A stretch of DNA of 26,572 nt. It comes from a virus. Below the pieces are notes generated by a model. It was not told the origin of the DNA. It worked only from the letters and a program-made list of their open reading frames with translations, and did not search any database. A program made the position numbers and the translations under genes. Shown piece by piece: positions 4,119 to 21,099 of this stretch (the first letter of the stretch is position 1; every line of letters starts with the position of its first letter). The stretch covers positions 1-26,572 of the IMG/VR virus record IMGVR_UViG_3300028706_000031; one strand, 5' to 3'.

Positions 4119-5054
4119 ATGGCAAATATATTACTAAGATCACCGTATTACGTTTATAAAACAAGAGCAGGAGCCTCATCAGCAAAATTAGAATTAGACA
4201 TTGAAGGTACATTAAGATACACAATAATAAAAAACACCCCAACAGAGACAGTTACTTTTGAGATAGCTGATTTAGTTAGAGACTATTTAGATATCACATA
4301 CACTGGTACTTATCAAAATCAAAAGGTTGTTGTCGCAGGTGAAATAAAATATTATGATGGAGTTAATGCTACAGGGAGTTTAATAGGTAACCCAGATACA
4401 TTTACACATAATGCCTTTGATGGATATTGGGATTATTGGAATGATTCATCGACTAAAGATTATTGTTCTACGGGAGATTGTATGATGCAAGATAATACTA
4501 CCGTGTACGTACCAGAAGGTCAAGGGGGATTCATACCTGTGTTAGCTGCTGGATCTATTATATATAATTCATTTACATCTTCAACTACATCTATAGCGGT
4601 AGGTAACCCAGCGGTAACGGTAACTATATCTAGAACACAATGTTCATATTATAATCCTATAAAAATTACTTTTGTAAATAAATATGGAGCATTACAAGAT
4701 ATATATTTTGATGCTAAAAGCACAGAGATATTAAATACAACACAAGAATCATACAAAAGTAGTAACATATCTACACAAGGAACATATTCAAAAACATCTC
4801 ATCAGTATAAGACGTTAAGTAAATTAGGTAGAGAAGTAATGACATTAAATACAGGTTTTATAGATGAAGGAATGAATGAATCAATGAAGCAATTAATGTT
4901 ATCAGAACAAGTATGGATGACTATGCAATCACAAGTGCATCCAGTAAATATAACAAGCCCATCCTTGCAGATGAAAACAAAAGTAAATGATAAATTAATT
5001 AATTATACAATTCAAGTAGAACATGCTCACGAACATATAGACAATGTTAGGTAA
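4119..5054 (+). CDS. Tail structural protein, distal tail / baseplate candidate
   Basis: The 311 residues are predominantly beta-rich. The N-terminus begins 'MANILLRSPYYVYKT', and a Trp/Tyr-rich loop 'DGYWDYWNDSS' sits near residue 105. Cysteines at about 117, 121 and 176 stand out in this low-Cys context. The C-terminal third carries 'SKLGREVMTLNTGFIDEGMN' and ends with a strand-rich 'INYTIQVEHAHEHIDNVR'. I associate this arrangement, a mid-sized beta protein directly before a very long tail-tip protein, with Bacteroidota phages, where a distal-tail or adapter role is likely. No named family is claimed. The TAATG overlap couples it to the giant gene that follows. Confidence 0.5.
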   Translation: MANILLRSPYYVYKTRAGASSAKLELDIEGTLRYTIIKNTPTETVTFEIADLVRDYLDITYTGTYQNQKVVVAGEIKYYDGVNATGSLIGNPDTFTHNAFDGYWDYWNDSSTKDYCSTGDCMMQDNTTVYVPEGQGGFIPVLAAGSIIYNSFTSSTTSIAVGNPAVTVTISRTQCSYYNPIKITFVNKYGALQDIYFDAKSTEILNTTQESYKSSNISTQGTYSKTSHQYKTLSKLGREVMTLNTGFIDEGMNESMKQLMLSEQVWMTMQSQVHPVNITSPSLQMKTKVNDKLINYTIQVEHAHEHIDNVR

Positions 5055-8000
5055 TGAAGAACATACTACAACTATATATAGAAGGAAATAGAATAGACTT
5101 ATTTGACGATGAATCAGTTAACATTATTCAATCGATTCAGAATGTTAAAGATATATCTAAAATATTTGTTGCATTTTCTAGAACCTTTAATGTTCCTGCA
5201 TCAAAAGTAAATAACAAAGTATTTAAACACTATTATAATTATTCTATAGTTGATGGCTTTGACGCTAGACTTAAAAAAGATTCCCTATTAGAATTAAACT
5301 CTAGACCTTTTAAAACAGGAAAGATAAAGTTAAATGGAGTAGATTTGAAAGAAGGAGTACCTAATAACTATAGAATAACCTTTTTTGGTGACACAATAGA
5401 TTTAAATGATTTATTAGGAGATGACAATTTAAGTTCTTTAGAGTTATCTGACTTTGATACAACTTATAATGCTTCAACTGTTAAGGATAGACTAAAGGGT
5501 GTTGGAACAAGTATTACATATTCACATCCTGATAGAACAACAGACGTAGTTTATCCAGCAGGTATTATTGCACCATTAATCTCACACACAACCAGATTAT
5601 ATTATCAAGACGCTGATTCAACAGATTATCCAGACTCAAATGGTGGTAATCTATATCCTAAATCTACTTCTCACCAAGGAGTTTATTATGGTGAATTAAA
5701 GTACGCTATAAAAATAGATGCTATAATAAAAGCAATAGAAGATAAATATGGCTTAACATTTAGTACGGATTTTTTTAATACTACTAACACACCTTATTAT
5801 AATCTTTATTTATGGATGAATAGAAAAAAAGGTGAGGTATTTGAAGATACACAAGTAGAAAAAAGAATTAGTAATTTTTTAATAGACTACAACCAAGAAT
5901 TACCTATTGTAACAAGTTATGGAGATAGGATAACAGTAGCTAACGCAACAAGTCAAGTTCAATTTTCAGTTACCATACAAGCTAACGCAGCTTTTACTGG
6001 GACTATATATATTAAAGAGAACGGGATAACAAGAGATGATTTAAGTATAAACGTAACTAATTCTACTCAAGGAACAATTACCGGTTATATGTCTAATGGT
6101 ACCTATGAGGTTTGGGTTAAATCAGCAGAATCATCAATAACATTTAACACTAATTCACAATGGGACTTAGATGCTTTACAATATCCAGATGGATCAGCCA
6201 CCTATCAAATGCAATCAGGAGGTTATGTGTTTAATAATACAAGAACTTTTATAATATCTGAACAAATGCCAGAAATGAAAGTTATAGACTTTTTAACTGG
6301 TATATTTAATGCGTTTAATCTTACAGCATACACTGATAATAATACAATCATAGTTAAAACATTAAATGATTATTATGAAGATTCAACTACAGTATGGGAT
6401 ATTACAAGTTATTTAGATACCAGTGAATCAAGTGTCAATAAAGCATTACCATATAAGGAGATAGAATTTAAATATTCAGGACTTGATACAAAACTAGCTA
6501 AACAACATGAGCAAATAAGTAATATATCTTGGGGAACAGAAGAGTATTCAGGTGATGATTATTACGACTCAAGTTCAGAAACATATACTATTGAAATTCC
6601 TTTCGAACACATGAAGTATGAGAGGCTAACAGGATCTGATATACAGGTTGGTTGGTTTGTAGATGATAATAATGAACCTTACTTCGGAAATCCACTTTTG
6701 TTTTATGCTTATAAACAAACAACATCAACAACAATAAGATTTTTAGAAACAGAAAATGTAGGGACCTATGACGACATAACAGATTACTATATACCATCTA
6801 ATAGTGTGGATATAGATCCAACAGAAACAGAGGTAAATATAAATTTTAAGAACGAATTAAATGAATACACTAATACTAATGAGTTTGAAAATACATTGTT
6901 TAAGGTATATTATCAAGATTATATAACAAAAGTATTCAAGGAAAATAGAAGACTAACCATTGTATATGCTTATCTACCTATAAAAATATTACAGGAATTT
7001 ATATTAGCAGACATAATAGCAATATTTGATCGCAATTACAATATTAACCAGATTGAAACAGATTTCACTACTGGAAGATCTAGAATAGAATTACTAAATG
7101 AAATTACATCCTCAATTGGAGGATCTACACCAGTAGAACCAACTACAACTGATCCAAATGAATGTTTAGAGTGTTCAGCAGACTCAACATTATGTACAGT
7201 AGATAAATTAACTCCTACTGCAGATAAAACTTGTGACATTGGTAGGTCTGTTACTATTGCTGGATTAACTACAGCAGAACAAAATACAGATATTGATCTT
7301 GAAGCAACACCAAATAATTTTATTGGAACTCCATCTTATTTGTGGTCCGGTGGTGATGCAGCAGGAAAAACAACTTCAAGTATCACCGTTAACGAGTCAT
7401 CAACAGGAAATGTAACTTATACTTGTGATGTAACAGATGATAGTGATAGTGCTGTGTTTTCAGATTCACATATAGTTTTATGGACACCTAAGTTCTATAC
7501 AATAACATTATCAATAACTAATCAAATACAGGGTCCTCCAGCAGGTTACAATATAACAGGAAATCAGACTGGAGATACTCAAGTATTAATAGAAGGATCT
7601 ACGTACTCTTTTAATACAAACGTAAGCGCAAATGCAGGTTATACTTTTTCAACACTACCCGTAATATCAAACGCAACAGGTACAGTAGCAACAAGTAACC
7701 AAACAGTATATACAATTTTGACTGGTTCAATTCAATTATCACAATCCTATATAACAATATACGGACCAACTCAACAAACTATAAATTCTGATGCGCATTT
7801 AACCACTGTAGCAACAGGAATTACTCCAACAGCATATCAATGGTCTAGGTCTACAGATGGAGGATCAACTTATACTAATGTTAGTGGAGAGACTAATTCT
7901 CAATTTGATGCAAATGAATCTTCTGCAGGAACATATTGGTATAAAATTACAGCATCAGATTCAACAGATACAGTTGAAGATGTACATGAGGTTATATTTA

Positions 8001-9862
8001 CAACTAGTTCGCTAATAACGTTAACATTAAACGTTGACACATCAAACATATCAGCTTCTGGCTATAGTCCTGTAGCTAATGGATTTACATTAGGAGGAAA
8101 TCAAACCGGTGATACGTTAACCCAAAACTCTGGTACTGTGTTTTTGTTTAATACAACTATATCTTTAAATGCTGGATTTGAATGGGTAGGTAGTCCTACT
8201 AGTGTTAATAATGCTGGAGGAACATATACCACTAGCCAAACTGTAGACACTACTTTTACTACAGCAACAATTCAATTAATAGTTTATAATTATTATGTAG
8301 TTACAGGATGTGCTGGAGAGTCAGTAGCAGGAGATACAAAATATGTAAGAACGAGAGATACGTTCACAGTAGGGACAAGCGCAACAGGTAGTTATGTTAC
8401 AATAGATAATCAATGTTGGTATACTTCATCCACAGCATTTGAAACAGATTGGGCAACTAACAATGGTATAACTATAGGAAATAAAGAAGGAACTGGATGT
8501 GCAACTTGTACAAACGTAACAACAACCGATCCTTGTCTAAATACTAAATCTTTATTTTATCTTAGATATTCTACTCAAAACGATGTTTGTGAAAATGAGC
8601 AATCAAAAGGGTATTATTATGTAGATGGTGCAAGTGTATCTCAATCATTAACTAATTTTTGTAATAGGACAAACATATATACTTATAATGATTGTACTGT
8701 TAATGCTCCAGCAGGTTATTACTCTTTAGATAGTGACAACACTGAAAGAAGATATTGGAACGGATCCAGTTTTAGCACTTGTGTAACATGTATTGATGCT
8801 AATGGATTATTCTATTTAGGTCAAGGTTGGAATCCAGCAAATCAATATTGTGATTGGTCTGGAAGAGTATTTGGGTATTATTATTTTGACAACAATGCTA
8901 CATTAATTACAGCAACTAGTAACGATCACATGTATACTTCAGCAACTAATGTAGGAACACCAAATAGAGCTCTCGAAGGATTTTATACAGATGGAACAAA
9001 TTATAGATATTACGAACCACCATCATTACAGGTTTGGGATCCATACGGGACATGTCCTCCAACTCCAACAACAAGTCCATGTAATACCATACCAACTAAA
9101 CCAACTTTAACTAATTGGATGCAGTATGTAGATTGTGCTACGGGATTAGAACAAACATTAGTTGTTGGTCATAATGCTTCGACTGGTTTTCCTGCAGTTA
9201 TACAAGTTAATACAAGTGGAGAATGTTTTAAAAATCCTACAGTAGTATCAGGAGCTCAGTCGGATGGATGGATAAATGGTCAAACTTGTGTTAGTAATAC
9301 ACCAGTAGATGATTATAATCATTACAACGATTGTACGTCTTGTACAGGTACTACGACAACATTACCACCTGCGACAACTACTGTTAGACCTGATAATGTG
9401 TTTGTAATGGAGAGACAGTCTGATGGGTTTAGCACATACGTTCAGTTAGATCAAACTCACCAAGTTGGAGACACCAATTTAACCATTTCAACAGGAGCAG
9501 GAGATTGTTACGATATACAAGGAGTTGCATCAGTGCCAACACCAACTAACTATGGTACTATAACAGGAACTTGTACAACAACAACAACTACTACTACCAC
9601 AACTACTATAGCTTGTGGATCTCAACTATTATATAAATCTTCAGTAGACGCTTTAACAGCATGTTGTAATACCACTGTAGCAAAATTAGTTTATATGGAT
9701 TCAAATAGTATAACTACAGCCACAGCAATATACACAAGTGATACTTGTGGAACATTATTAGGAACAACAACTTTCTTTACAGATGACTTTAGTAATTATT
9801 ACCAATGGAATGCAACAACAAACTCATTAACAGGACCTACAACTTGTCCATCATGCCCATAA
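5054..9862 (+). CDS. Giant modular tail-tip / receptor-binding protein
   Basis: This 1602-residue protein has three visible parts. Residues 1 to about 690 form a long, aromatic-rich region likely to anchor in the tail tip. Residues about 714-1078 contain two copies of a paired module: an Ig-like domain (Trp core in 'PSYLWSGG' and 'AYQWSRSTDGG') followed by a domain with the shared motif GNQTGDT. Residues about 1079-1602 are Cys/Tyr-rich repeats with 'GYYY' motifs. Thr-rich linkers separate modules near 7141, 8517, 9062, 9346 and 9574; the last is a run of Thr codons (ACA/ACT/ACC). No catalytic motif was seen. Domain make-up and the place between the 311-residue protein and the tape measure gene fit a tail-tip adhesin contacting the cell surface. 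Confidence 0.75.
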   Translation: MKNILQLYIEGNRIDLFDDESVNIIQSIQNVKDISKIFVAFSRTFNVPASKVNNKVFKHYYNYSIVDGFDARLKKDSLLELNSRPFKTGKIKLNGVDLKEGVPNNYRITFFGDTIDLNDLLGDDNLSSLELSDFDTTYNASTVKDRLKGVGTSITYSHPDRTTDVVYPAGIIAPLISHTTRLYYQDADSTDYPDSNGGNLYPKSTSHQGVYYGELKYAIKIDAIIKAIEDKYGLTFSTDFFNTTNTPYYNLYLWMNRKKGEVFEDTQVEKRISNFLIDYNQELPIVTSYGDRITVANATSQVQFSVTIQANAAFTGTIYIKENGITRDDLSINVTNSTQGTITGYMSNGTYEVWVKSAESSITFNTNSQWDLDALQYPDGSATYQMQSGGYVFNNTRTFIISEQMPEMKVIDFLTGIFNAFNLTAYTDNNTIIVKTLNDYYEDSTTVWDITSYLDTSESSVNKALPYKEIEFKYSGLDTKLAKQHEQISNISWGTEEYSGDDYYDSSSETYTIEIPFEHMKYERLTGSDIQVGWFVDDNNEPYFGNPLLFYAYKQTTSTTIRFLETENVGTYDDITDYYIPSNSVDIDPTETEVNINFKNELNEYTNTNEFENTLFKVYYQDYITKVFKENRRLTIVYAYLPIKILQEFILADIIAIFDRNYNINQIETDFTTGRSRIELLNEITSSIGGSTPVEPTTTDPNECLECSADSTLCTVDKLTPTADKTCDIGRSVTIAGLTTAEQNTDIDLEATPNNFIGTPSYLWSGGDAAGKTTSSITVNESSTGNVTYTCDVTDDSDSAVFSDSHIVLWTPKFYTITLSITNQIQGPPAGYNITGNQTGDTQVLIEGSTYSFNTNVSANAGYTFSTLPVISNATGTVATSNQTVYTILTGSIQLSQSYITIYGPTQQTINSDAHLTTVATGITPTAYQWSRSTDGGSTYTNVSGETNSQFDANESSAGTYWYKITASDSTDTVEDVHEVIFTTSSLITLTLNVDTSNISASGYSPVANGFTLGGNQTGDTLTQNSGTVFLFNTTISLNAGFEWVGSPTSVNNAGGTYTTSQTVDTTFTTATIQLIVYNYYVVTGCAGESVAGDTKYVRTRDTFTVGTSATGSYVTIDNQCWYTSSTAFETDWATNNGITIGNKEGTGCATCTNVTTTDPCLNTKSLFYLRYSTQNDVCENEQSKGYYYVDGASVSQSLTNFCNRTNIYTYNDCTVNAPAGYYSLDSDNTERRYWNGSSFSTCVTCIDANGLFYLGQGWNPANQYCDWSGRVFGYYYFDNNATLITATSNDHMYTSATNVGTPNRALEGFYTDGTNYRYYEPPSLQVWDPYGTCPPTPTTSPCNTIPTKPTLTNWMQYVDCATGLEQTLVVGHNASTGFPAVIQVNTSGECFKNPTVVSGAQSDGWINGQTCVSNTPVDDYNHYNDCTSCTGTTTTLPPATTTVRPDNVFVMERQSDGFSTYVQLDQTHQVGDTNLTISTGAGDCYDIQGVASVPTPTNYGTITGTCTTTTTTTTTTTIACGSQLLYKSSVDALTACCNTTVAKLVYMDSNSITTATAIYTSDTCGTLLGTTTFFTDDFSNYYQWNATTNSLTGPTTCPSCP

Positions 9863-9863
9863 T

Positions 9864-10745
9864 ATGAAATATATATCAGCTCAACCAGAATCAAAATACT
9901 ATGAATGGCAAGTAGATACCATGATAAATTCATATATTAAAAATGGAGTAAGTGAGTTAGATATAATAATATTGTTAGGTGATAATGGAGAATATAAATT
10001 TGATAAATTAAGATCTAAATATAAGGAAGTTAGCTTTATAAGTTACCCACATAAAACAGAATCTTATGCACCTGCTATTAAACCTTATTTAATGAGTAGA
10101 TATTTTAGTAGTTGTGCGTGTACGCATGGAGAACAATATTATTATGCAGATGCAGATACAATTTTATTAAATCCTTTACCTAAATTCCCTAAAGACACAG
10201 TTTTTATGTCAAACACTAGAGGTTATATTGGTGTTAAATATATAGAATCTAAAGGTAAAGACATTTTAGATATTATGTGTAATGCAGCAAAGATAGATAA
10301 AAATATAGTAAAAGATAGAGATTTAGAAGCTGGAGGAGCTCAATTCATATTTTCAGGAACAGATGGCAAATTCTGGAGAGATGTATACGTTAACTCTAAT
10401 GCATTATTTAGAGAGATGAGAAAGTATAATAACGAACACAAAGACAATTACACTGACAGTTATCCTATTCAAGCTTGGACTGCAGAGATGTGGGCAACTT
10501 TATGGCAATTTTGGAAAAAGGCATATAAAACAGAAATAACTCATCTTTTAGATTTTGTTTGGTCTACAGATCCAATCTCATCATTAGAGGGTAAAAATAT
10601 TCTACACAATGCAGGAGTTACTACACAAGAAGGAATGTTTAGAAAATCTCAGTGGATGAGAGAATATCCACCAAAAGATCTCAATGTAACAAAAACCCAT
10701 TGTAATTATTATTATTATAAGCAAGTATTAGAAGCAACATGTTAG
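9864..10745 (+). CDS. Glycosyltransferase-like protein (GT-A type, DAD motif)
   Basis: The 293 residues show an N-terminal alpha/beta half with strands 'DIIILLGD' and 'EVSFISYP', then 'YYYADADTILLNPL' with the DAD at 96-98. This corresponds to the DxD motif that binds the metal and sugar nucleotide in GT-A enzymes. Later signatures are 'GGAQFIFSG' (157-165), 'WTAEMWATLWQFW' and 'ILHNAGVT' (246-253), which resemble the acceptor-side and histidine elements of some glycosyltransferases. Length fits a single-domain enzyme without signal peptide, so it should act in the cytoplasm. It lies one base after the giant adhesin and before the tape measure gene, so a virion protein is a likely substrate. 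The substrate is inferred. Confidence 0.65.
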   Translation: MKYISAQPESKYYEWQVDTMINSYIKNGVSELDIIILLGDNGEYKFDKLRSKYKEVSFISYPHKTESYAPAIKPYLMSRYFSSCACTHGEQYYYADADTILLNPLPKFPKDTVFMSNTRGYIGVKYIESKGKDILDIMCNAAKIDKNIVKDRDLEAGGAQFIFSGTDGKFWRDVYVNSNALFREMRKYNNEHKDNYTDSYPIQAWTAEMWATLWQFWKKAYKTEITHLLDFVWSTDPISSLEGKNILHNAGVTTQEGMFRKSQWMREYPPKDLNVTKTHCNYYYYKQVLEATC

Positions 10746-10879
10746 GAAAAACTTTAGAATTATTAAGATTAGCAAAAGAAGAAGGAGTAAGAGGTGAGTA
10801 TATAGATATAGCTCTCGGTAAAAACAAAATGCCTACTAGTTTAAAAGAAGTAATGATGAAATTTAAAAACAAAGAATAA
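10739..10879 (+). CDS. 46-residue protein between GT and tape measure, unknown
   Basis: A short ORF from ATG 10739 (overlapping the stop of the glycosyltransferase gene) to TAA 10877-10879, which overlaps the tape measure ATG (TAATG). The product begins 'MLGKTLELLRLAKEEG' and is basic and helical. Both junctions are overlaps, which strongly suggests that it is translated, since it exactly fills the space between its neighbours. No family is recognised. A small tail-assembly factor would fit the location. Confidence 0.6.
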   Translation: MLGKTLELLRLAKEEGVRGEYIDIALGKNKMPTSLKEVMMKFKNKE

Positions 10880-12630
10880 TGGCTCAAGAAATAGATATTG
10901 ATATTAACGTAAAAACCAAAGGAGCTCAAAAGAATATTCAGAAGTTTGGTGTAGGTCTTGAAGGTATACAATCAGGAGCTAAAGCCGCAGGAAAGGCTAT
11001 GTTCTCATTAAACAAAATATTTAAAGCTAATGTTGCTATAAAAGCATTCAATGCTGTGTTGGATATTCTTAAAGATACATTTATGTCTAATCAGAAAGTT
11101 GTAGACACATTTGCTACAGCTACTACAAGTTTACAAATAGTATTTAACGACTTATTTAAGTTTGTAGAAAATAATGTAGGTGTTATAACTGGTTTCTTTA
11201 AAGGAATATTTGAAGATCCAGTTGGTGCTATCGTAGATTTTGGAAATGCAATAAAAGATAACGTAATAGAAAGATTTAATAGTTGGATTGAAACTTTAGG
11301 TTTAGTAGGAAGTGCTATAGCTAAAGTATTTAAAGGAGATTTTGCAGGAGCATTAGAGGATGCAAAAAGCGCAGGTAAAGAACTTGTAGATGTATATACT
11401 GGAGTAGACGGATCTTTTGATAAAATAGCAGAAGCGTTACCAGAATTAATTAAGAAAACAAAAGAATATGCTGGAGAAGTTATTAATGAGGCTAAAAGTG
11501 TTACTAAATTAAATAAGCAAAGAGATAAAAGCATTGTACAAAACAATATTATTAAAGAGCAAAAAGATAGAGAAGCAGAATCATTAAGACAAATAAGAGA
11601 TGAGGAAAGAAATACTATAAAAGAAAGAATACAAGCTAATAACGATCTTGCTTTAGTTTTAGAAGAGCAAGCGAAATTAATGTTAGCAAATAACCAATTA
11701 GTAATTGAAGCTGCCCAAGCACAAGTTGATTTAAATGCTAATCAAGAAAACGAAATAGCTTTACTAGAAGCAAAAGCAGAAAAAGCAGCAATATTAGCAC
11801 AAATAGAAGGATTTAGATCTGAACAAAAAGCAAATGATTTTGCTTTAGATAAAGAAAGATTAGAGTTAGAACAAACAACCGCACAAGGTGCAATTGAAAC
11901 TCAAAACATAATAAAGAAAGGACAAGCAGAGTTAATAGATAACGAAGTATTAAGGTTACAAAAGCAAAAACAAATTGCTGTAGAAGAAGAAAAAATAACA
12001 AAAGATTTACTTGAAAGTAAAAAAGCAAGTTATAAAGAAGGAACACAAGCCTTTATTGATGCAACTAATGAATTAAATAATTTTAATGCAGAAAGTGCTA
12101 ATACACAAAAGAAACTAGATAAAGATATAGCAGATGCAAAGGTTTCAGCTATTACAGGAGCGTTAGGATCATTAGCTAGTTTAGTTGGTGAGAATAGTAG
12201 ATTTGGAAAAGCAATAGCTATAACACAAGCAATAATAGACACTTATGCTGGTGCTACTAAAGCTTTTGGTCAAGGTGGAGTATTTGGATTCGTTGGAGCA
12301 GCATCAGTCCTTGCTGCAGGTTTTGCTAATATTAAAAAAATAACATCTACTAAAGAACCACCGTTACCAAGTTTTGCTAATGGAAGTTCAGGAGGTTCAA
12401 TATCTACTCCAGCAGCAGTTACATCTAGCCCACCAAGTATAAATGTTGTAGGTGCATCAGCAGAAAGTCAATTAGCACAAACAATCGCAGGATCACAAAC
12501 AAGACCAGTAAAAGCATACGTTGTAAGTACTGAGGTAAGTACTCAACAAGCATTAGACAGACAAACAGCAAACCAAGCAACATTAGGAAGAGCAAAAAGA
12601 GCTAGAGCAAATGTTCAAGGTGGTTTATAG
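10879..12630 (+). CDS. Tape measure protein
   Basis: The 583-residue protein sets tail length and is threaded through the tail tube. It starts with 'IDINVKTKGAQKNIQKFG', typical of tape measure N-termini. Hydrophobic/amphipathic segments lie at about residues 40-60 and 95-160, a long charged coiled coil at about 200-425, and a glycine/alanine-rich hydrophobic stretch at about 445-485 ('TYAGATKAFGQGGVFGFVGA'). The C-terminal tail is Ser/Pro-rich, then basic. At roughly 0.15 nm per residue it would predict a tail of about 87 nm, a rule-of-thumb estimate. It lies far from the tail-tube candidate at 15185, separated by head genes, which is unusual. Confidence 0.85.
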   Translation: MAQEIDIDINVKTKGAQKNIQKFGVGLEGIQSGAKAAGKAMFSLNKIFKANVAIKAFNAVLDILKDTFMSNQKVVDTFATATTSLQIVFNDLFKFVENNVGVITGFFKGIFEDPVGAIVDFGNAIKDNVIERFNSWIETLGLVGSAIAKVFKGDFAGALEDAKSAGKELVDVYTGVDGSFDKIAEALPELIKKTKEYAGEVINEAKSVTKLNKQRDKSIVQNNIIKEQKDREAESLRQIRDEERNTIKERIQANNDLALVLEEQAKLMLANNQLVIEAAQAQVDLNANQENEIALLEAKAEKAAILAQIEGFRSEQKANDFALDKERLELEQTTAQGAIETQNIIKKGQAELIDNEVLRLQKQKQIAVEEEKITKDLLESKKASYKEGTQAFIDATNELNNFNAESANTQKKLDKDIADAKVSAITGALGSLASLVGENSRFGKAIAITQAIIDTYAGATKAFGQGGVFGFVGAASVLAAGFANIKKITSTKEPPLPSFANGSSGGSISTPAAVTSSPPSINVVGASAESQLAQTIAGSQTRPVKAYVVSTEVSTQQALDRQTANQATLGRAKRARANVQGGL

Positions 12631-19371: not shown

Positions 19372-21099
19372 ATGTTTGGACAAGGTATAAATTTTGGAAC
19401 TTTAGCAGCAGCACAAGTAGTAGCAGATTTTCTTGCAATAGCAGGAGGAGCAGGTGGTGGTGTCGGTGGTGGAGGTGCTGGTGGGTATAGAACATCTGCA
19501 GGAACATCAGGTGGAGGTGGAAGTGCTGAATCAAAAATTACATTAGTAGATGCAACAACTTATACATTTACTCTAGGTGCAGGTGGAACAGGAGTAGCAA
19601 ATGGTAGTGGAGTAAAAAGTGGCAATGGTGTTGATTCATCTATTGCAGCAACTGGAATTACAACAATTACATCTGTTGGAGGAGGTGGTGCAGGAACTGG
19701 AGGTGCAATAGGAAGTTATAATAGTGGTGCAGATGGAGGTTCAAGTGCTGGTGCTGGAACTGCTAATCAAGGTTTTGCAGGAAGTAATGCAGAACAAGGA
19801 GGTGGTGCTGGTGGAGGTGCAGGTTCAGTAGGTGCAACTCCAAGTGCTTATTCAGGAGGTAACGGAGGTTCAGGTGTATCTTCTACTATAACAGGTTCTG
19901 CAGTATCAAGAGCAGGTGGTGGTGGAGGTTTAGGTTATGGTGCAGGAAGTGCAGGAACTGCAAGTAACGGAGGAGGAGCTGGAGGATATGGTTTCCCATC
20001 TACAGGAACAAGTGGAACAGCTAATACAGGTGGTGGAGCAGGTGGAGGTTCAACTACAGGCTCAAATGGTGGTTCAGGATTAATCATATTTAGATTACCA
20101 ACTTCTGCTTATACAACAGGATATACAACAGGTTCGCCAACAGTTACAACAGATGGCACAGATTCAATATTAAAATATACAGGTTCAGGAACTTATAATC
20201 ACGGACTGACAGCAGTAAATATGGACTTTTTAGTAATTGCTGGAGGAGGAGCAGGTGGAAACGCTTTAGGTGACGGTTCTGGAGGTATTGGTGGTGGAGG
20301 AGCAGGTGCAGGAGGATTGAGAACGTCTTATGGTTCTACATCTGGAGGTGGAGCAAGTGCAGAAGATAATATTATATTTTCATCAGGCACTTTTACAATC
20401 ACAGTCGGTGCTGGAGGAGCGTCAGGTGTAGGAAATTCAACAGATAGTTCTATTGCCGCTACAGGTTTAACTACGATTACATCTTTAAAAGGTGGTTATG
20501 GTGGTTCGCGTGCAGGAAATGTTCTTGGACAAGGTGGAAATGGTACTGTTGGTTCAGCAGGGGCAACTGCTACTGATTCAGGAGGAGCTACTCCAGTTGG
20601 TACAACAGGACAAGGATATGCATCTGGAGCACCAGTTACTTCAGGGACAACAAGGTCAAGTTCAGGAGGTGGAGGTGCCGGTGGAGCTGGTGTTTCAGCA
20701 GGTTGGGATGGTCCTGGTGAAAACGGAGGTACTGGTGGTTTAGGATTATCAGTATCAATAACAGGTTCTTCTGTTGGTTATGCTGGCGGAGGTGGCGGTG
20801 GAGCTGGAAATACAAGTAGTGGTGTACCTGGAGGTGTAGGAACATCAGGAGGTGGTTCTGGAGGTTCTACTCACGGAAATAATGGTGGAAACGGAACAGC
20901 TAACACAGGCGGTGGAGCAGGAGGTGCTGGAGGTGGTTCATCTTACGGAAGTTCTGGAGCAGGAGGTTCAGGTGTGGTTATATTAAGATTACCGACAGCA
21001 GATTATTCAGGAAGTACAACAGGAAGTCCTACAGTAACAACATCAGGTAGTGATACAATAATGAAATTTACAGGTAGTGGTACATACGTACATAGTTAA
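19372..21099 (+). CDS. Glycine-rich fibre tip protein with two long repeats
   Basis: The 575 residues consist of two glycine-rich units. The first runs from about residue 17 ('VADFLAIAGGAGG') to about 283, the second from about 284 ('MDFLVIAGGGAGG') to the end. Each includes a Gly-rich core with a '[S/A]IAATG[I/L]TTITS' segment and ends with 'LPT...TTGSPTVTT...GSGTY'. Glycine arrangements of this kind are found in phage adhesins whose tips form polyglycine helix bundles, and such tips decide host range in T4-like phages. The gene is purine-rich (GGA/GGT/GCA codons), unlike its neighbours. Host recognition is a reasonable inference; no receptor can be named. Confidence 0.65.
   Translation: MFGQGINFGTLAAAQVVADFLAIAGGAGGGVGGGGAGGYRTSAGTSGGGGSAESKITLVDATTYTFTLGAGGTGVANGSGVKSGNGVDSSIAATGITTITSVGGGGAGTGGAIGSYNSGADGGSSAGAGTANQGFAGSNAEQGGGAGGGAGSVGATPSAYSGGNGGSGVSSTITGSAVSRAGGGGGLGYGAGSAGTASNGGGAGGYGFPSTGTSGTANTGGGAGGGSTTGSNGGSGLIIFRLPTSAYTTGYTTGSPTVTTDGTDSILKYTGSGTYNHGLTAVNMDFLVIAGGGAGGNALGDGSGGIGGGGAGAGGLRTSYGSTSGGGASAEDNIIFSSGTFTITVGAGGASGVGNSTDSSIAATGLTTITSLKGGYGGSRAGNVLGQGGNGTVGSAGATATDSGGATPVGTTGQGYASGAPVTSGTTRSSSGGGGAGGAGVSAGWDGPGENGGTGGLGLSVSITGSSVGYAGGGGGGAGNTSSGVPGGVGTSGGGSGGSTHGNNGGNGTANTGGGAGGAGGGSSYGSSGAGGSGVVILRLPTADYSGSTTGSPTVTTSGSDTIMKFTGSGTYVHS

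Follow-up and report, generated by a model that had tools for sequence, protein, structure and literature searches.

A putative GT-A glycosyltransferase of phages and its association with poly-threonine tags on virion proteins

Does a glycosyltransferase-like gene lying amongst the tail genes of a phage act on the Thr-rich protein encoded beside it? The locus that raises this question is part of IMG/VR virus record IMGVR_UViG_3300028706_000031, analysed here as a single window of 26,572 nucleotides (26.6 kb), in which terminase, tail, head and portal genes are all carried on one strand (window coordinates below refer to the plus strand). The open reading frame (ORF) at 9864–10745 is intact, begins with an ATG start codon, and encodes a protein of 293 amino acids that contains YYYADADTILL. 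The original prediction took it for a genuine gene with a DAD motif, and both points are borne out by the intact ORF and its membership of a conserved family (phrog_4417). The gene had also been described as coupled to its neighbours on both sides. This holds upstream, where the preceding ORF stops at 9862 and a single base separates it from the enzyme gene start at 9864. On the downstream side, it holds only by way of a 46-aa ORF (10739–10879), which overlaps both the stop of the enzyme gene and the start of the tape measure gene, and is conserved in relatives whether or not they carry the enzyme (...IDIALGKxKxPxSxKE...). The tape measure protein (10879–12630, 583 aa; phrog_3336 tail length tape measure, E 2e-9) is a neighbour outside the module proposed below. 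Elsewhere in the window, downstream of a tail-fibre-connector-like gene, a very Gly-rich protein of 575 aa (19372–21099; phrog_2295) is likely to be a tail fibre.

PHROG 4417, a family of "unknown function", matches residues 1–291 of the 293 (E 6.6e-60), and distant relatives of the enzyme match the same profile. No Pfam family (E up to 1) and no NCBIfam family above chance was found, and phmmer and profile searches of PDB sequences returned chance matches (fluorescent proteins, geminin) and no solved glycosyltransferase; by these same searches, the protein lacks the sequence similarity that defines CAZy family GT8. With no solved glycosyltransferase within reach of sequence profiles, the protein is treated here as a divergent GT-A family and is not filed under GT8 or another CAZy family. 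An AlphaFold2 model, for which 49 enzyme relatives served as the input alignment (pLDDT 94, pTM 0.91), has a GT-A fold across its whole length, with VIA Z scores of 14–15 over about 210–230 residues. The best PDB matches by VIA are Skp1 galactosyltransferase (6mw5, Z 15.2), glycogenin (6eql, Z 14.7) and LgtC (1g9r, Z 14.4), while Foldseek matched the model to WbbM (6u4b, E 5e-8). All top-ranked Foldseek and VIA-align matches are GT-A enzymes, namely WbbM, UGGT, LgtC, Skp1 galactosyltransferase, glycogenin, GlyE and GT6 enzymes. In a viral structure library, only two proteins are close over the whole fold, an uncultured phage protein and LP65 Orf49 (both of unknown function).

Both Asp residues of the DxD motif (D96-A97-D98; 10149–10157) are invariant in 49/49 relatives, as are Glu208, His248 and several Trp, Gly and Gln residues. 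The C-terminal His248, found in the sequence HNAG (10605–10607), is a candidate metal ligand by analogy with GT8 enzymes. The predicted fold, the DxD motif and the C-terminal His are all shared with GT-A enzymes of the GT8/GT24/GT6 kind (glycogenin, LgtC, UGGT, BoGT6a) and with the pneumococcal GlyE, although identity over the fold is 6–16% and there is no sequence-profile match. GlyE modifies a Ser-rich-repeat adhesin in the cytoplasm. By its predicted fold and motifs, the product of ORF 9864–10745 is a putative GT-A fold glycosyltransferase; structure prediction and comparison with glycosyltransferase families thus agree with the GT-A-like enzyme originally proposed.

Additional domains were observed in a few relatives. 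A C-terminal domain of ~55 aa, assigned to phrog_3673 ("Arc-like"), is carried by the enzyme in Bacillaceae phages (L063, 8001–9077; L059, 8001–9071). It resembles the N-terminus of a YqbF-like protein from the head-tail region (tblastn E 2e-4; compare L181, 4112–4270), and may recruit the enzyme to assembly intermediates. On the minus strand of locus L289 (1–1117), the enzyme carries a fused C-terminal segment that matches the methyltransferase PHROG phrog_3382 and perhaps serves glycan methylation.

The proposed substrate is encoded immediately upstream (5054–9862; phrog_38559). It is 1602 aa long with 15% Thr, and its six runs of at least three Thr, the longest of 11, agree with the five or more Thr-rich linkers with repeated Thr codons that had been noted earlier. 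It had also been called a giant Thr-rich adhesin; the richness in Thr stands, while the plain adhesin label fits less well. The first ~690 residues (5054–7123) yielded an AlphaFold2 model with pLDDT 83 that matches hubs or tail-tip proteins of A-1(L), 7-7-1, Milano, Mu (gp44) and T5 (VIA Z 10–12.5), and so has the gp27/gp44-like fold of phage baseplate hub or Tal proteins. These models point rather to a tail-tip hub that bears a long extension, for which host or surface binding is plausible. Residues ~267–377 of the hub part (5852–6184) form a C1q/TNF- or BclA-like beta-sandwich insert (VIA Z about 9–10), which is unusual for a baseplate hub. The hub part is also conserved in relatives that lack the enzyme. 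The remaining ~900 residues (7124–9859) make up a C-terminal extension rich in Thr and Cys, in which long poly-Thr is confined to enzyme-carrying relatives. It contains the run of 11 Thr codons (residues 1508–1518; 9575–9607), a mixture of ACA, ACT and ACC that is kept as a run of 9–14 in relatives, and the shorter runs TTTTLPPATTT, read from the protein sequence (residues 1433–1443; 9350–9382).

A tblastn search with the enzyme retrieved 74 phage records, of which those listed are 28–34% identical to it, from phages of Lactococcus, Enterococcus, Lactobacillus, Staphylococcus, Arcanobacterium and Chryseobacterium; the gene is most common in phages of Gram-positive bacteria. The gene that it often follows encodes the major capsid protein in 9183, 4995_1 and R9.1, the major tail protein in 1706 and phiFL1A, and a small Thr-rich protein in iLp84 and Iacchus. 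The capsid and tail proteins of phage 1706 each end in T9–T10 HHD, those of R9.1 terminate in T7–T9 SHV, and the C-terminus of the bIL285 tail protein reads KTTTTTTTTTRHD. Similar poly-Thr was found in phiFL1A, iLp84, SA2, TPWB06, 4995_1 and MA9V-3. The tagged protein therefore varies by phage, and can be a hub, major capsid, major tail, connector or small Thr-rich protein; amongst loci from isolate or metagenome-assembled genomes (MAGs), an identical tail is often present on both the capsid and the major tail protein. Poly-Thr tails on capsid and tail proteins rule out that the partner is always an adhesin.

The make-up of these tails also bears on which residue is modified. The enzyme could act on Ser, Tyr, Asn or Cys of the extension or tail, with the Thr runs serving for docking or as spacers, and it is true that the extension in the window is Cys-rich as well and that Ser and Pro surround the runs in small Thr-rich proteins. 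In most Firmicutes tails, however, the new residues are just Thr and one to four end residues (SA, GA, SHV, HHD), which leaves Thr as the only acceptor common to all. We regard modification at a residue other than Thr as very improbable.

How closely the gene and poly-Thr are associated was assessed in 75 enzyme loci, made non-redundant at 90% identity. A same-strand run of at least six Thr lies near the enzyme in 71/75. Seven of these loci came from a scan for poly-Thr itself (see below), and setting them aside leaves at least 64/68, spanning Bacteroidota-type, Firmicutes and Arcanobacterium phages. A run of at least five is present in every one of the 30 loci that come from bacterial genomes (isolate or MAG). 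The four loci without a run of at least six are L047, 521B, 9183 and L043, the last of which is truncated 239 bases upstream of the gene. Shorter Thr clusters are all that is found in 521B, which has PTTV repeats, and in 9183, whose tail protein ends TTTDPVTTTSTTRQ. The clade L047–L052 has the enzyme and no run of at least five Thr nearby; here, a Thr/Ser-rich protein follows the enzyme. Of the co-occurrence with Thr-rich adhesins that had been anticipated, the Thr-rich partner is thus retained and the adhesin is not. The gene does occur without a Thr-rich adhesin, which had been named as a refuting observation, yet this favours a more general pairing of enzyme and poly-Thr.

As the runs are repetitive DNA, (ACN)n, they could in principle have arisen by replication slippage in fast-evolving tails, with no link to the enzyme. 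Slippage is ruled out as their origin by codon usage, since each of the 181 runs of at least six Thr uses two to four different Thr codons. Nor do other residues form such runs: homopolymer runs of at least five in enzyme loci number 302 for Thr and at most 8 for any other residue. Thr runs of this length number 1 and 4 in two sets of enzyme-less loci (61 and 58 loci, respectively), and the runs are missing from 109 gene-less controls. An origin by slippage is hardly credible on these grounds.

Two unrelated protein families allow loci with and without the enzyme to be compared directly. Homologs of the hub part were gathered regardless of the enzyme, and amongst the 66 complete cases, a run of at least six Thr is present in 13/13 with the enzyme and 0/53 without it (Fisher 5e-14, a significance inflated by relatedness). 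Hubs without the enzyme usually stop at ~690 residues, and some carry other extensions, themselves up to ~700 residues long, with no long Thr run. In one Firmicutes major-tail-protein family, a run of at least five Thr is found in 18/19 with the enzyme and 0/56 without it (Fisher 2e-16, likewise inflated by relatedness); the sole enzyme-associated exception ends TTTSTTSA. Presence of the enzyme changes 11 times on the tail protein tree, four of which are forced by well-supported branches, and three times on the hub tree. In supported independent pairs, poly-Thr changes with the enzyme in 3/3 for the hub, while a mean of 3.8/4 agree for the tail protein and none is opposite. Because these comparisons are few (3 and 4), neither tree alone is significant after correction for relatedness.

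Two close relatives, loci L046 and L146, share 83% identity across 3.1 kb, and the match stops precisely where the L146 hub does (679 aa, after LLNVID). Past that point, L046 continues into a Thr-rich extension of 320 aa with the enzyme gene one base later, and L146 into the tape measure gene. The position of the break at the exact hub end indicates that extension and enzyme were gained or lost as one block. In L181, a connector-type protein with T10 (4486–4803) occurs with no enzyme gene detectable in 12.5 kb, perhaps through recent loss of the enzyme.

These comparisons also weigh on the target of the enzyme. DNA and polymers of the host surface are the substrates of many phage glycosyltransferases, and the GT8-like fold matches include the polysaccharide enzymes LgtC and WbbM, so that the enzyme might glycosylate phage DNA, teichoic acid or another host polymer, with poly-Thr providing flexible linkers that share these phages with it by chance. 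Such a coincidence is at odds with presence or absence of the enzyme predicting poly-Thr in two unrelated protein families, with the joint gain or loss of both in close relatives, and with the location of the gene within the structural operon, usually adjoining the tagged protein. We therefore consider a target other than virion proteins unlikely, and favour glycosylation of the Thr runs themselves.

The association was also approached from the poly-Thr side, by a scan for uninterrupted stretches of nine Thr codons in 2.9 million viral contigs. Among the matches listed, 9/58 loci with a real Thr ORF carry the enzyme, which amounts to a large enrichment given that a pattern search found at least 267 enzyme relatives in the whole collection. 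Seven enzyme loci were new, and their Thr-rich ORFs, of varied type, are positioned between a 92-base overlap with the enzyme gene and a 24-base gap from it. The other 49/58 listed loci show no enzyme, and many of them are short pieces. Amongst 103 neighbours of the other, enzyme-less Thr ORFs, one PF11397 GlcNAc transferase was detected, and its locus is absent from ten large candidates that were checked. In locus L301 (838–2911), an ORF with at least nine Thr in a row is followed, about 470 bases further on, by the gene for a radical SAM/SPASM protein, which could possibly represent a different modification system for Thr-rich proteins.

Some tags may be reached by recoding. In bIL285 (L026, 5880–6012), the major capsid ORF ends at a TAA stop codon that is followed in frame by NDKTTTTTTRHD and a further stop, and in-frame tails of the same type after the capsid TAA were also observed in L070, L073, L074, L076, L078 and L081–L084. 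The tail after the capsid stop in bIL285 and its lactococcal relatives is about the same as that on their major tail protein. Readthrough of the capsid TAA is thus a possible route to a tagged minor capsid form. In SA2 (L032, 5640–5940) and TPWB06 (L034, 5690–5940), the product of the major tail gene has the ending TTTTTTTT(T)P, at CCC TAA, and the gene overlaps a long Thr-rich stretch in the +1 frame. The arrangement resembles a programmed +1 frameshift like that of PSA; the tsh gene of Listeria phage PSA has a known +1 frameshift site at CCC TGA (review PMC5009743). As in the phages described here, PSA-type extensions add extra C-terminal segments common to the major capsid and major tail proteins (PMC5009743). 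Known extensions of phage capsid and tail proteins are mostly Ig-like domains (PMC5009743), in contrast to the Thr runs beside a glycosyltransferase found here. Judging from the reading frames, these sites suggest that some phages tag only a fraction of their capsid or tail subunits.

Virion glycosylation encoded by phages is already known from mycobacteriophages. According to the accounts of Freeman et al. (2023) given in PMC12363180, PMC12619734 and PMC11652166, phage glycosyltransferases (Che8 gp110, Corndog gp38) O-glycosylate the C-termini of capsid and tail-tube subunits, and this glycosylation shields the virions from antibodies. As far as those accounts go, a modification of the same kind is proposed here, with phage-encoded enzymes acting on capsid and tail C-termini. 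Membership of our enzyme in the Che8 family is ruled out, as hhalign of gp108, gp109 and gp110 against the enzyme profile gave probabilities of 0.4%, 0.1% and 0.05%, all below 1%. Che8 differs further in that there is no poly-Thr at the ends of its capsid and tail proteins, and that a long distance separates its glycosyltransferase genes from the structural ones. Most occurrences of the gp110 family (706 records) are in mycobacteriophages, whereas no Mycobacterium phage is amongst the 74 enzyme records. In the literature collection that was searched, no relevant paper on poly-Thr in phage virions came up. The glycosylation unit had been put forward as undescribed for this type of phage; in kind it has a precedent, while the Che8 enzymes gp108–gp110 are unrelated to it by sequence.

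General O-glycosylation in Bacteroidota, to which the enzyme had been linked, is periplasmic and takes place at D(S/T)(A/L/V/I/M/T) sites by a membrane oligosaccharyltransferase, whereas phage virions are assembled in the cytoplasm. Given this, and how common the gene is in Gram-positive phages, the link is probably irrelevant.

We consider it very likely that a cytoplasmic, metal-dependent GT-A enzyme glycosylates consecutive Thr residues in virion proteins of its own phage, and that enzyme and tag make up a portable module. The unit of enzyme and neighbouring Thr-rich substrate first suggested is well supported by the fold, the invariant residues and the poly-Thr association in two unrelated families, though not in its restriction to adhesins. 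For the events at the tag, we infer sugar transfer, its donor, Thr as the acceptor, the anomeric outcome and the biological benefit. The enzyme would act during virion protein synthesis, transferring from a nucleotide sugar, likely a UDP-sugar as used by its fold neighbours, to the hydroxyls of consecutive Thr. In the window phage, the target would be the Thr-rich extension at the C-terminus of the hub, whose gene lies one base ahead of the enzyme gene, and the distal tail would then carry clustered, mucin-like O-glycans. In Gram-positive relatives, the enzyme is paired with short poly-Thr tails that terminate the major capsid protein, the major tail protein, a connector or small Thr-rich proteins. 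The benefit could be shielding, solubility or surface binding. Across Firmicutes, Actinomycetota and Bacteroidota phages, it is likely that the phage enzyme O-glycosylates any virion protein that gains a run of about six or more Thr, be the run in frame or reached through frameshifting or readthrough.

Carrier phages thus probably sugar-coat their own particles at built-in Thr tags. If so, a function would be provided for an unannotated family in common phages of lactic acid bacteria, enterococci and staphylococci, and phages outside the mycobacteria would be found to glycosylate their particles via another enzyme family. The simplicity of the tag (six or more Thr) would make substrates predictable from sequence and the tag movable to other proteins, and so offers a direct test of the idea in well-known lactococcal phages. 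Virion glycosylation influences antibody binding, stability and host adsorption.
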